From assembly GCA_030432595.1 (NCBI GenBank), contig JAUIGU010000007.1, forward strand, positions 1 through 64,000: a stretch of DNA of 64,000 bases. Reading direction: 5' to 3'. Below, in pieces: positions 19,052 through 22,967 of this stretch. The stretch is from Phycisphaerae bacterium (GTDB lineage Bacteria > Planctomycetota > Phycisphaerae > Phycisphaerales > Phycisphaeraceae). A model generated the notes under the pieces. That model saw nothing but the letters and a program-made list of their open reading frames with translations, ran no database searches and was not told the DNA's origin. Position 1 is the first letter of the stretch; every line of letters starts with the position of its first letter. A program made the translations under genes and the position numbers.

Positions 19052-19933
19052 TCAGGCGAGCAGCTGGCCGAGCAGGCGGAGGCAGCCGTCGCGGTACGAC
19101 CCGCCGAAGTGCCAGAGGTGCGAGAGCAGGTGGTGCAGGCGGTACACCTCGACGCGGCGCTGCCAGCCGTCGGCGAGCGGGTTGGCCTCGTGGTATGCGG
19201 CCTCGAAGCGCGGCCCGAATCCGAAGAGCCGCGTCATGCCGAACTCGGCCTCGCGGTGGGCGAAACTGCACGCAGGGTCGTAGATCCAGACGCGGCCGGC
19301 GGCGTCGGCGCAGGCGTTGCCGGTCCAGAGGTCGCCGTGGATGAGCGTCGGCGGTTCGTCGGGGCCGGCGAGCAGGTCGGGGAGCCGGTCGGCGAGTTGT
19401 CGGCCGAGCCGGTTGACTTCTTTTTCCTTCGGCAGCGCATCCAGCAGCGGGAGCAGGCGTTGGTCACGCCAGAACCTGATCCAGTCGGCCGTCGTCGGGT
19501 TGGCTTGCGGGAGTCGGCCGAGGTAGGTGTCACAGGGGAACCCGAACCGTTCCGTGGTGCCGGCGCGGTGGAGCAACGCGAGCCCGTGACCGAGTTGTTC
19601 TTCGAAGTCGGCGGGCGGCGGGGCCGTGTCGATGGCTTCGAGAACCAGAAACGCGTTATTGACGGCCAAGACTTCGGGAATGCTCAGTGCGCCATCGCGC
19701 TCCGCGGCGTCGCTGAGCGCATTCAACCCCGCGGCCTCGGCGACGTAGAGGCCGGGCATGTTGGAGACAGCGCTTCCGTGGCCGGGCGTCTTGAGGAAGA
19801 CACGGCGACCGTCGGCAAGTTCGAGACGTTGCGCGTGGTTGATGTCGCCGCCGGCGACGGGCTTCGTTTGCGTGATGCGCGTGCCGAGCGCGGCTTCGAG
19901 CGGGTCGCGCAGCTCGGGCGGTAGGCCGCTCAC
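19052..19933 (-). CDS. Fructosamine kinase-like enzyme
   Basis: This 293-residue cytoplasmic protein belongs to the FN3K/aminoglycoside-phosphotransferase fold. Signs are PVAGGDINHAQRLELADGRRVFLK near the N-terminus (nucleotide loop and ATP-binding Lys), the catalytic loop LIHGDLWTGN, and the metal-binding Asp in IYDPACSFAHREAEFGM. FN3K enzymes phosphorylate sugars attached to protein amines so that the glycation is removed. The start is a GTG overlapping the TGA of the phosphatase gene (GTGA); an earlier in-frame ATG would overlap it by 49 bases. Coupling to a phosphatase suits a protein-repair pair, but that link is inference. Confidence 0.88.
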   Translation of the reverse strand: MSGLPPELRDPLEAALGTRITQTKPVAGGDINHAQRLELADGRRVFLKTPGHGSAVSNMPGLYVAEAAGLNALSDAAERDGALSIPEVLAVNNAFLVLEAIDTAPPPADFEEQLGHGLALLHRAGTTERFGFPCDTYLGRLPQANPTTADWIRFWRDQRLLPLLDALPKEKEVNRLGRQLADRLPDLLAGPDEPPTLIHGDLWTGNACADAAGRVWIYDPACSFAHREAEFGMTRLFGFGPRFEAAYHEANPLADGWQRRVEVYRLHHLLSHLWHFGGSYRDGCLRLLGQLLA

Positions 19934-20433
19934 GCGTGGGCTTGTTCCGGCATCACGTGGTCGAGGATGTGCGGGCACGCCGCCTCGATCATGTCGAGCA
20001 CGATCTCGAAGCCCGCCCCCCCGCCGTAATACGGGTCGGGCACGTCCGGCGGGCCGCCGCGGTTTTGCTGGTCGGGTGGCAGGAACGACCCGAGCAGTCG
20101 GATGTGTTCGGACGCGCCGCTGTTCAACGCTTCAAGGTCCGCGAGGTTTTCGCGGTCCATCGCGACCACGAGGTCGAAGCGTTCGAGGTCGTCGCGGTCA
20201 ACTTTGCGCGAGCGCTGGCCGGCCAGAGCGATCCCGCGGTTTATCGCGGCCTGCGTCATCCTTTTGTCGGGCGGGCTGCCGGCGTGGTACCCGATGGTGC
20301 CCGCCGAGTCGATGGCGATGCGCAGGGTCAGGCCGCGCTCGTCGACCAAACGCTTGAACACCCCCTCGGCCGCGGGGCTGCGGCAGATGTTGCCCATGCA
20401 GACAAACAGGACGGACGCGTCGGGCTCGACCAT
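19930..20433 (-). CDS. Low-molecular-weight protein tyrosine phosphatase
   Basis: Started at MVEPDASVLF, the protein has 167 residues. The phosphate loop CMGNICRS gives Cys12 as nucleophile and Arg18. The general-acid Asp lies in DVPDPYYGG near residue 134. The length is normal (about 150-165). Such enzymes remove phosphate from tyrosine or arginine on proteins. The open frame continues 28 codons upstream into repeat DNA, so I reject that extension. It forms a two-gene unit with the fructosamine kinase-like gene. Confidence 0.92.
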   Translation of the reverse strand: MVEPDASVLFVCMGNICRSPAAEGVFKRLVDERGLTLRIAIDSAGTIGYHAGSPPDKRMTQAAINRGIALAGQRSRKVDRDDLERFDLVVAMDRENLADLEALNSGASEHIRLLGSFLPPDQQNRGGPPDVPDPYYGGGAGFEIVLDMIEAACPHILDHVMPEQAHA

Positions 20434-20459: not shown

Positions 20460-20790
20460 GAACCGCCAAGACGCCAAGAACGCCAAGTGCTGAGACATGG
20501 AATGTCACAGAGGTCACGGAGGTACAGACACACAGAGTGACCGTTTTTTTTGCCGCAGATTTATATAGATGGCGCAGATGAAAACATGAAGACGTTGAAT
20601 CAAGATGGACAGGATCGTCAGGATCAAGACAGAAAACAGGAGAAACGGATCCTGATCATCATGCTCATCCTGTTTCTGCCCGAATCTGCGCCATCTGCGA
20701 AATCTGCGGCAAAAACGCTTTGTCTGTTGCCTCCGTGCTATGTGTCTTTTGTGTGATGGCTTGAATCTGGCCTTGGCGTCTTGGCGGTTC
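20460..20790. repeat. Nested inverted repeat of four micro-repeat modules
   Basis: This 331-base imperfect inverted repeat fills the whole gap between the phosphatase gene and recG. The outermost 19 bases at 20460-20478 (GAACCGCCAAGACGCCAAG) recur inverted at 20772-20790. Moving inward, both arms carry the same modules in order: GCCAAG units, CACGGAGG/CACAGAG units, GCAGAT units (20551-20579 against 20683-20708, with AGATGGCGCAGAT shared exactly) and CAGGAT units (about 20604-20640 against 20645-20676). Each module is a short array with a period of about 8-11 bases. The stretch is less GC-rich than its neighbours. A 68-codon frame inside is a by-product. Confidence 0.85.
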
Positions 20791-20795
20791 GATCT

Positions 20796-22967
20796 TTACC
20801 CGACATCGATTAAACCAAGGCTTTCGCCGTGCTGGTGCAGCAGGACGCGGCGGAGCAGGGCGTTTGGATCGCTGGAGAAGCTTGGGTCGGCGTCGATCAT
20901 CGTCTCCGCGTCACGGCCGGCCATTTTGAGCAGGTCAAGGTCTTCGGGGATCTGCGCGAGGCGGAGCGGGACCGCGCCGGCCTGGCGGGTGCCGAAGAAG
21001 TCGCCCATTCCGCGGATCGCCAGATCGTGCTCGGCGATCTTGAAGCCGTCGTTGGTCGAGGCGATCGCTTCGAGGCGTTTGGTCGCGTCCTCGGTGGTCG
21101 GGTCGGCGATGAACACGCACAGCGGCCGGCGTTGGTTCGTGCCGCGCCCGATACGCCCTCGCAACTGATGGAGCTGCGCGAGGCCAAAACGCTCGGCGTG
21201 CTCGATGATCATCACGGTGGCGTTGGGGACGTCGACGCCGACCTCGATCACGGTGGTCGCGACGAGCACGGCAACCTCACCGGCGCGGAAGTCGTCCATC
21301 ACGGCTTGGCGTTCTTCGGGCGACATGCGGCCGTGCACCGCGCCGACGCGGTGGTCGGCGAAGAAGCGCTGGGCGAGCATGGCGGCGTGATCGGTCAGGT
21401 TTTTCAGGTTTTTGCCGTCGGGCTTGCTGGCTGAACTCTTTGAGCCGGGGGCGTCGCCGTCGATCGTGGGCACGACGACGTAGACCTGCTCGCCACGTTG
21501 CACCCGGCCGGCGGCGTACTCGTAGACCTCGTCGGCTTGCAGCGGCATGACCACGCGGTTGGTGATGGGCGTCCTGCCGGGGGGCAGCTCGTCGAGCGTG
21601 GAGACGTCGAGGTCGCCGAACAGGGTGAGCGACAGCGTGCGCGGGATCGGCGTGGCGGTCATGACCAGCGTGTGCGGGACGTCGGTTTTGTCCTCGCCGC
21701 CGCGCAGCGCAGCGCGTTGGCGGACGCCGAAGCGGTGCTGCTCGTCCACCACGGCGACCGCGAGGTCGTGGAACGCGACCGACTCGGACAGCAACGCGTG
21801 CGTGCCGACCGCCAAATCGAGTTCGCCCGACGCCAGCGCTTCGCGGTCGCCGGGGTGGTTGGCGGTGAACAGGTCGATCCGCACGTCCGAGCCCTCGAGC
21901 ATGCGCTGGATGGACGCGAAGTGCTGCTCGGCGAGCAGCTCGGTCGGGGCCATGAGCGCCGCCTGCTTCCGGTCGGCGACGGCGAGCAGCATCGCGTAGA
22001 GCGAGACCACGGTCTTGCCCGCGCCGACGTCGCCCTGCAGCAAACGGTTCATCGGGTAGCCGCGCTGGAGGTCGTTCGCGATCTCGGCCACGGAGCGGTC
22101 CTGCGCACCGGTGAGCGGGAAGGGGAAGCGCTTGCGGATATGCTGGTCGATCGCGTCGGAGAAGCGCAGCGGCGGGGCTTTGAGGTGGTGCCGGACGTGA
22201 GCGCGTTTGAGCGCGATGCCCAGCTGCAGCAGCAGCAACTCGTTGAACGCGAGTCTTCGGCGGGCGCGGCGGTGTTCGTCGGCGTCGGCCGGTCGGTGGA
22301 TCATGCGGAACGCTTCTGCGAGCCTGGGCATCTCGTGGTGCGCGATCAGTTCGCCGGGCACAGGGTCCTCGACCTGCGCGACGGCGTCGTCGAGGATGCT
22401 GTCGATGAGTTTGGCGATGATCGTGGAGGGCAAGCCGTCGGTCGCGGGGTAGACGGGTTGGAGTCGGTCTTCCCGGTTCGGCTCGTCCGCGGAATCATTG
22501 GCAGGCGATTCCGGGTCTTCGTCTTTTTTGACCTCGGCCCACTTGGCGTTGACCATCTGTGGGTAGTTCTGGAAGCGTTTGACCTTGCCCTGCACGTCGA
22601 GCGTCATGCCCGGGTGGAGCTTGTCGCGCAGCCACGCGGCATTGAACCAGGTGAGCAGGAGCGTGCCGGTGTCGTCGGAGAGCGTGGCCTCGAACCGCCC
22701 TTTTCGGCCGCGATGGGGTGGGCCGACCCAGCGTGTGTTTTCGACCGTGCCGCGCGCGGCGCCGACCGCGTCCTTGGGCAATTCATCGAGCGCAGCAATG
22801 TCGCCGACGGCGGCGTGGTGCTCGTAGCGCAGCGGGTAGTGGCGGAGCAGGTCGGTGACGGAGCGCAGGCCGAGGCGGTGGTAGAGCTTGACCCGCGCCG
22901 GGCCGACCCCTGGGAGTTCGGAGACCGGGGTGGTGGGTTTGAGGGTGGACGTCGGCGGGTCGGACAC
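20796..22967 (-). CDS. recG: ATP-dependent DNA helicase RecG
   Basis: This 723-residue enzyme remodels stalled replication forks and Holliday junctions. An HhH-like start (VSELPGVGPARVKLYHRLGL) and wedge/OB domain (YPLRYEH, VQGKVKRF) are followed by superfamily 2 helicase motifs: LLQGDVGAGKTVV (Walker A), VVDEQHRFGVRQR (DEQH box), MTATPIPRTL, and in the C-terminal half LVATTVIEVGVDVP, QLRGRIGRG and the TRG motif RGMGDFFGTRQAG. Length is slightly above the usual 690. A glycine/serine/lysine linker around GSKSSASKPDGKNLKN is an insertion. It lies 79 bases downstream of proS on the same strand. Confidence 0.97.
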   Translation of the reverse strand: MSDPPTSTLKPTTPVSELPGVGPARVKLYHRLGLRSVTDLLRHYPLRYEHHAAVGDIAALDELPKDAVGAARGTVENTRWVGPPHRGRKGRFEATLSDDTGTLLLTWFNAAWLRDKLHPGMTLDVQGKVKRFQNYPQMVNAKWAEVKKDEDPESPANDSADEPNREDRLQPVYPATDGLPSTIIAKLIDSILDDAVAQVEDPVPGELIAHHEMPRLAEAFRMIHRPADADEHRRARRRLAFNELLLLQLGIALKRAHVRHHLKAPPLRFSDAIDQHIRKRFPFPLTGAQDRSVAEIANDLQRGYPMNRLLQGDVGAGKTVVSLYAMLLAVADRKQAALMAPTELLAEQHFASIQRMLEGSDVRIDLFTANHPGDREALASGELDLAVGTHALLSESVAFHDLAVAVVDEQHRFGVRQRAALRGGEDKTDVPHTLVMTATPIPRTLSLTLFGDLDVSTLDELPPGRTPITNRVVMPLQADEVYEYAAGRVQRGEQVYVVVPTIDGDAPGSKSSASKPDGKNLKNLTDHAAMLAQRFFADHRVGAVHGRMSPEERQAVMDDFRAGEVAVLVATTVIEVGVDVPNATVMIIEHAERFGLAQLHQLRGRIGRGTNQRRPLCVFIADPTTEDATKRLEAIASTNDGFKIAEHDLAIRGMGDFFGTRQAGAVPLRLAQIPEDLDLLKMAGRDAETMIDADPSFSSDPNALLRRVLLHQHGESLGLIDVG

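Follow-up and report, generated by a model that had tools for sequence, protein, structure and literature searches.

A four-layer nested inverted repeat between recG and a phosphatase gene, probably a gene-less derivative of GxxExxY elements

The window, the whole 64,000-nt stretch of DNA that was analysed, carries a 331-bp palindromic element (20460–20790) between recG and a gene for a low-molecular-weight phosphotyrosine phosphatase. Both genes are read from the minus strand, with the element 5 bp 3′ of the recG stop codon and 26 bp 5′ of the phosphatase ATG. Features of the region are given below, with the basis of the assignment in parentheses.

19930–20433, minus strand: low-molecular-weight phosphotyrosine phosphatase gene, downstream gene (PF01451)
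20460–20487, plus strand: layer A, left arm, GAACC and three CGCCAAG units at a period of 8–9 (strict three-unit A arm)
20505–20538, plus strand: layer B, left arm, units CACAGAG / CACGGAGG / CACAGAG (module marking)
20547–20579, plus strand: layer C, left arm, units CCGCAGAT ... GCGCAGAT (inverted-repeat search)
20597–20625, plus strand: layer D, left arm, CAGGAT units (inverted-repeat search)
20626–20647, no strand: terminal loop of 22 nt without ORF (inverted-repeat search)
20648–20676, minus strand: layer D, right arm, CAGGAT units (inverted-repeat search, 76%)
20684–20715, minus strand: layer C, right arm, three CGCAGAT units (inverted-repeat search)
20720–20758, minus strand: layer B, right arm, partly degenerate, with a CACGGAGG unit on the minus strand (inverted-repeat search, module marking)
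20772–20790, minus strand: layer A, right arm, two clean CGCCAAG units (19-nt exact match with the left arm)
20791–20795, no strand: 5-bp gap between the element and the recG stop codon (sequence)
20796–22967, minus strand: recG, upstream gene in the direction of transcription (ORF annotation)

The element is a nested inverted repeat of four layers, built from GCCAAG, CACAGAG, CGCAGAT and CAGGAT units (modules A to D). Exact matches were found between the outer arms (19 nt, 20460–20478 and 20772–20790) and between two inner pairs (16 nt, 20547–20562 and 20700–20715; 13 nt, 20567–20579 and 20684–20696), while the innermost arms (20597–20625 and 20648–20676) are 76% complementary. Folding of the strand predicted one long hairpin of −171 kcal/mol, as against −110 ± 5.6 kcal/mol for shuffled sequences (z = −10.9), and none of 100 shuffles reached this stability; arm matches and fold together place the structure well outside chance expectation. 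A first-pass annotation had described a four-family nested inverted repeat with 19 identical outer bases, and both statements are borne out by the arms and the fold. The mirror order that it gave was likewise recovered (A-B-C-D / d-c-b-a), although in the right half module B and the third A-arm unit are degenerate, as was the lower GC content of the element (49%, as against 67% for the window and 68% for the 1 kb on either side). No PF13366/TIGR04256 gene lies between the arms, and a search of 20460–20790 with the Rfam covariance models gave no match at E ≤ 1. The first-pass placing of the element before recG had to be corrected: recG, a minus-strand gene, ends at 20796, and the element lies 3′ of it. 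A link to the action of RecG on cruciform DNA, also suggested there, was rejected because sister elements sit behind many unrelated genes.

The same annotation had proposed a search of the whole genome for the modules, a lone copy to be counted against its reading. Across the 4.39-Mb genome, 136 partial matches to the window element were obtained at about 36–38 loci; the best reached 74%, and no near-identical recent copy was found by this search. At about 36 loci the modules form A-only, C-only or D-only hairpins and mirror nests of varied order, those marked being A around C, C around A (L043, L052), A around B, and A around C around D. A further outer module, F (CACCGAT/CACGGAT), is present at L036, L051 and L058, and folding of the sister loci predicted nested stems. 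A second module lay inside or around a strict three-unit A arm at about 13 of 17 loci, a figure from a four-module query in which nesting may be over-counted; by a rough estimate, random intergenic landing would place well under 1% of insertions in the loop of another element. Insertion into loops therefore looks preferred or strongly tolerated. No consistent direct repeat indicative of a target-site duplication was seen at the ends, the exact ends being uncertain in most loci.

Several other arrangements were noted alongside these loci. Module-A arms in the window's genome also enclose about 0.6–0.9 kb of other sequence, as if cargo had been caught: L042:1847–2455 holds a 136-aa ORF with no Pfam match, and L047:2082–3017 holds pentapeptide-like ORFs. 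A 6-kb stretch in another genome (L367, G076:C85:18300–24300) is rich in arms of the A, CACAGAG and CGCGGAG types, most of them pointing the same way, and resembles a pile-up of half-palindromes. A separate repeat of about 75 bp (L294:18602–18698, near C43:48.6 kb) is matched more than 20 times in the same-genus genome, at identities of 73–87%. A single reverse transcriptase was found in the window's genome (L085, G000:C19:102115–102849); it has a group II intron maturase domain, and no arms were seen near it.

Comparison with related genomes at the insertion site, which had also been proposed, was possible with one genome of the same genus (G001) at four sites. At the recG-phosphatase site this genome has the same two genes separated by a 65-nt gap and lacks the palindrome, which supports the earlier suggestion that the stretch may have come from elsewhere. 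At C17:102322, an ABCD palindrome, the gap is 54 nt in G001 versus 405 nt, and at C43:31754, where C surrounds A between two tightly linked genes and the element follows the upstream stop codon almost directly, it is 17 versus 204 nt. At C17:106909 an F palindrome is common to both genomes and an inner C palindrome is confined to the window's genome, so that layers can differ in age; the comparison shows that a nest can lack its inner layer and still have the outer one. Any single site could reflect loss in G001; gain is favoured because all four sites point in one direction and their contents are mutually unrelated. In the same contig, an IVP-family gene without flanking arrays (L084, C17:111941–112246) occupies DNA that is also conserved in the genome of the same genus and is possibly a domesticated copy.

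GxxExxY proteins often begin with translated short repeats. The window's genome encodes 7 GxxExxY (PF13366) and 10 IVP (PF05635) genes, most of them with inverted micro-arrays on both sides, and GxxExxY is present in 52 of 81 genomes of the window's class. Inverted arms of three units bracket 62 of 66 GxxExxY genes, compared with 0 of 30 control recG flanks. By sample, bracketing was seen for 28 of 29 genes in the class, 6 of 7 in the window's own genome and 28 of 30 in other phyla, where the genomes had been chosen for containing module A and took in cyanobacteria, Verrucomicrobia, Lentisphaerae, Acidobacteria, Chloroflexi, Methylomirabilota, Bacteroidetes, Proteobacteria, Myxococcota and FCPU426. 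An earlier remark that similar short-period motifs lie between genes in diverse bacteria agrees with the distribution of the 17-mer ACCGCCAAGACGCCAAG, which occurs in at least 116 stretches from many phyla; in many of these the arm recurs inverted within 30–250 nt.

From 59 elements an arm grammar could be derived, consisting of three 7-mers C-R-C-N-R-A-K at a spacing of 8–10 nt, inverted at both ends (unit consensus C-R-C-(A/G)-(G/A)-A-(G/T)). Three units are present in 81 of 118 arms, with spacings of 8, 9 and 10 nt in 69, 107 and 32 cases, respectively. Modules A (CGCCAAG), B (CACAGAG/CACGGAG), C (CGCAGAT) and F match this consensus; module D (CAGGAT) has the same period and lies outside it. 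Within the window element, layers A and C give strict arms on at least one side, layer B agrees by its units with a degenerate right arm, and layer D does not conform. Judged from sequence, at least three of the four layers (A, B and C) thus have the end structure of GxxExxY elements, with layer D a related array. D-type arms flank none of the 66 GxxExxY genes, and a partner gene for layer D was not found among them. The statement of the first-pass annotation that such a palindrome has no known function is fair as regards the literature; its arms can nevertheless be assigned as the ends of GxxExxY elements.

Arms and genes also correspond in detail. For 36 elements the element's own right arm was the best match among 65, where 1 would be expected. 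Distances between proteins and between units covaried (Mantel r = 0.44; when one member of each pair came from the class and the other from another phylum, r = 0.46; 0 of 5000 permutations reached either value). Because the unit sequence follows the protein, arms and gene travel together, and the comparison shows their joint inheritance across phyla. Asparagine versus threonine or serine in the QxxxY motif tracks the last base of the unit, N occurring with non-G. As a specificity code (N in QxxNY, non-G last base) this was set aside, since it reflects only about three independent changes on the tree and is not independent of descent; it is suggestive only. Among plasmids GxxExxY was found in 7 of 72,556, and no homologues were found in viral contigs and phages. 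Two GxxExxY elements (L070, L262) and an IVP element (L081) were noted behind homologous upstream genes at different places, the element types differing and the sites being alike.

By Pfam, GxxExxY (PF13366) is a PD-(D/E)XK family, and the residues GxxE, D, ExK and QxxxY are invariant in it. This set is known from Cas4/RecB-type nucleases. Of two GxxExxY proteins run through PADLOC, one showed only a weak similarity to Cas4b (E 0.002), short of a match to a defence model, and a sequence search against solved structures found no significant relative.

Module-A arms were found around GxxExxY genes in Tolypothrix (L344), Flavobacteriales (L350) and two further genomes, G088 (L365) and G076 (L366). 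Of these, G088 belongs to the window's own family and has the highest A-arm count, 74. GxxExxY genes in the window's own genome have B- and C-type arms and none of A type, and the A copies there are without a visible helper. Gene-less forms can, on the evidence of G076, arise by internal deletion: in this genome a gene-less copy adjoins an intact element, the left arm and gene start being identical, about 360 bp gone, the gene end identical, and the right arm and flanks nearly identical to those of the intact copy. This copy plainly reads as an internal-deletion derivative that arose after tandem duplication. Genome G089 has a pair of copies separated by 5 kb, which align at 78% only over the gene and right arm; the alignment ends exactly at the outer end of the right arm, and the flanks are unrelated.

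Placement was examined for the 59 full elements, in most of which the left arm begins no more than about 16 nt from the stop codon that ends a co-oriented gene; annotated examples lie between fabD and fabG in Sphingomonas parapaucimobilis and after radA in Bacteroides finegoldii. At L365 the start codon can directly follow the arm, from which expression by read-through from the upstream gene seems likely. Nearness to stop codons may mean survival and not targeting, because such gaps are short.

The reading that we prefer, with a probability of about 0.68, is that 20460–20790 is a non-autonomous, gene-less, MITE- or REPIN-like derivative of GxxExxY elements, nested by loop insertion. Four palindromic elements would have inserted in succession, each newcomer into the loop of an element already there. 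GxxExxY, alone or within a complex, would recognise the triple units at both ends and pair the two ends, and its nuclease site might then make the cut. Gene-less copies would be moved in trans by GxxExxY, with the loops of existing hairpins perhaps favoured, or safest, as targets. The host most probably carries the element as neutral ballast in the recG-phosphatase mRNA; an effect on mRNA processing is possible.

The chief competitor, which we consider unlikely, is a mobile hairpin family in which GxxExxY is a mere passenger or regulator, the mover being a host enzyme, another transposase or a reverse transcriptase acting on any hairpin. The genome does contain candidates of this kind (three genes resembling Y1 transposases, and the reverse transcriptase with its group II maturase domain), and the module-A arms around other sequence at L042 and L047 would suit it. 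So would the unrelated IVP four-helix bundle family, which is bracketed by different inverted arms: perfect-heptamer arrays lie on both sides of 30 of 38 IVP genes from the class sample and the window's own genome, each gene with its own heptamer (L264–L292, L075–L083). However, the arm grammar is specific to the gene family, with CRCNRAK units at 8–10 nt for GxxExxY and 7-nt arrays for IVP, the unit sequence tracks the GxxExxY protein across phyla, and its catalytic residues are invariant.

A hairpin maintained by the host at the RNA level between recG and the phosphatase gene, whether as a terminator, an mRNA stabiliser or a site of RNase III processing, is improbable. The fold is very stable, and elements of this kind are always intergenic, just behind stop codons, where the hairpin would form in the mRNA. 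Against this stand the empty site in the same-genus genome, the patchiness of module A, which only 8 of the 81 genomes of the class contain (arm counts from 0 to 74), and the failure of Rfam to match. Differences compatible with G-U pairing, moreover, are not in excess on the gene strand (57 versus 50), and this lack of strand asymmetry gives no sign of RNA-level selection. Construction in place by template switching and slippage, with no mobile element involved, can be all but dismissed: micro-repeats and palindromes are slippage-prone and some arrays exceed three units (G063, G083; partly possibly coding), but identical 17-mers and tri-unit arms recur in unrelated phyla paired with a gene, the G089 copies have sharp ends, and whole units are present or absent between relatives.

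A wider proposal, somewhat less likely than not, is that GxxExxY proteins are a new class of DNA-mobilising enzyme. In this proposal a Cas4/RecB-like PD-(D/E)XK nuclease would read a cognate 7-mer, three per end, in a fold-back hairpin, and would carry both the gene encoding it and hairpins without a gene into intercistronic gaps and into older hairpins at their loops. The IVP four-helix family, which is unrelated, would act as a second driver alongside it, one with heptamer ends, and the two might explain many orphan short-period repeats of bacteria (heptamer repeats, CACAGAG/CGCAGAT arrays). For many bacterial genes the annotation goes no further than "GxxExxY protein" or "four helix bundle protein", and intergenic repeats of short period have long been reported without a source. 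The association of 62 of 66 against 0 of 30 gives both a likely identity, as the gene and the ends of one element, and opens to testing the question whether DNA could be moved by a small PD-(D/E)XK nuclease through recognition of arrays in hairpin arms. Annotators should take care over gene boundaries, as an overlap between an arm and the start or end of the gene is frequent.

Among known systems, heptamer repeats have been described as TAACTGA in Beggiatoaceae and cyanobacteria (PMC4679880) and as GGGAATC in Xanthomonas and GGGGAYT in Nostoc, with about 70 inverted pairs in Xanthomonas (PMC4692102). As far as the cited portions of these two papers go, such repeats resemble the present arrays in being intergenic, of short period and patchy across phyla; they differ in being perfect 7-mers described without a link to a gene, and are closer to IVP-type arms than to the window element. 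The Xanthomonas/Nostoc and Beggiatoaceae arrays may, on the same portions, belong with the IVP-type arrays. IVP itself resembles Avd of diversity-generating retroelements (PMC10053308; NCBIfam). Intervening sequences of 23S rRNA with the S23/IVP protein (PMC4990558) are similar as hairpin-ended inserts with one small ORF in the loop, and the IVP family of the class has the same inverted-array layout. The window element, in contrast, lies between protein genes (recG and the phosphatase gene) and not in rRNA, its loop has no ORF, and its layers are of the GxxExxY and not the IVP type.

The window element has the features of a MITE, namely terminal inverted repeats, no coding capacity, several copies and presence or absence among relatives. 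The internal-deletion derivative, the empty sites and the patchy copy number strengthen the likeness. It differs in lacking a known DDE or Y1 transposase, in having ends at which no consistent target-site duplication was seen, in terminal repeats that are micro-tandem arrays and in nesting within loops. REPINs and their RAYTs (PMC3116915) are small extragenic hairpins formed from two inverted conserved ends, and the window element shares this form, with many extragenic copies; in both systems the same ends flank a gene thought to act in trans, and gene-less copies outnumber genes. Here the gene encodes a PD-(D/E)XK nuclease (PF13366) and there a Y1/HUH transposase; three 7-mers per arm replace one REP palindrome, and the hairpins nest. 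A Y1 gene (PF01797) in the RAYT role was not found in the genome, its three weak matches lacking such arms in the flanks inspected. REPINs moved by RAYTs (PMC3116915) are the closest working counterpart. In the open-licence literature, no paper was found that ties GxxExxY or IVP genes to repeats or describes tri-unit arms or loop-nesting. Provisionally, the small non-autonomous hairpin element is of a known kind, and the link to a nuclease, the tri-unit arms and the nesting in loops are new.
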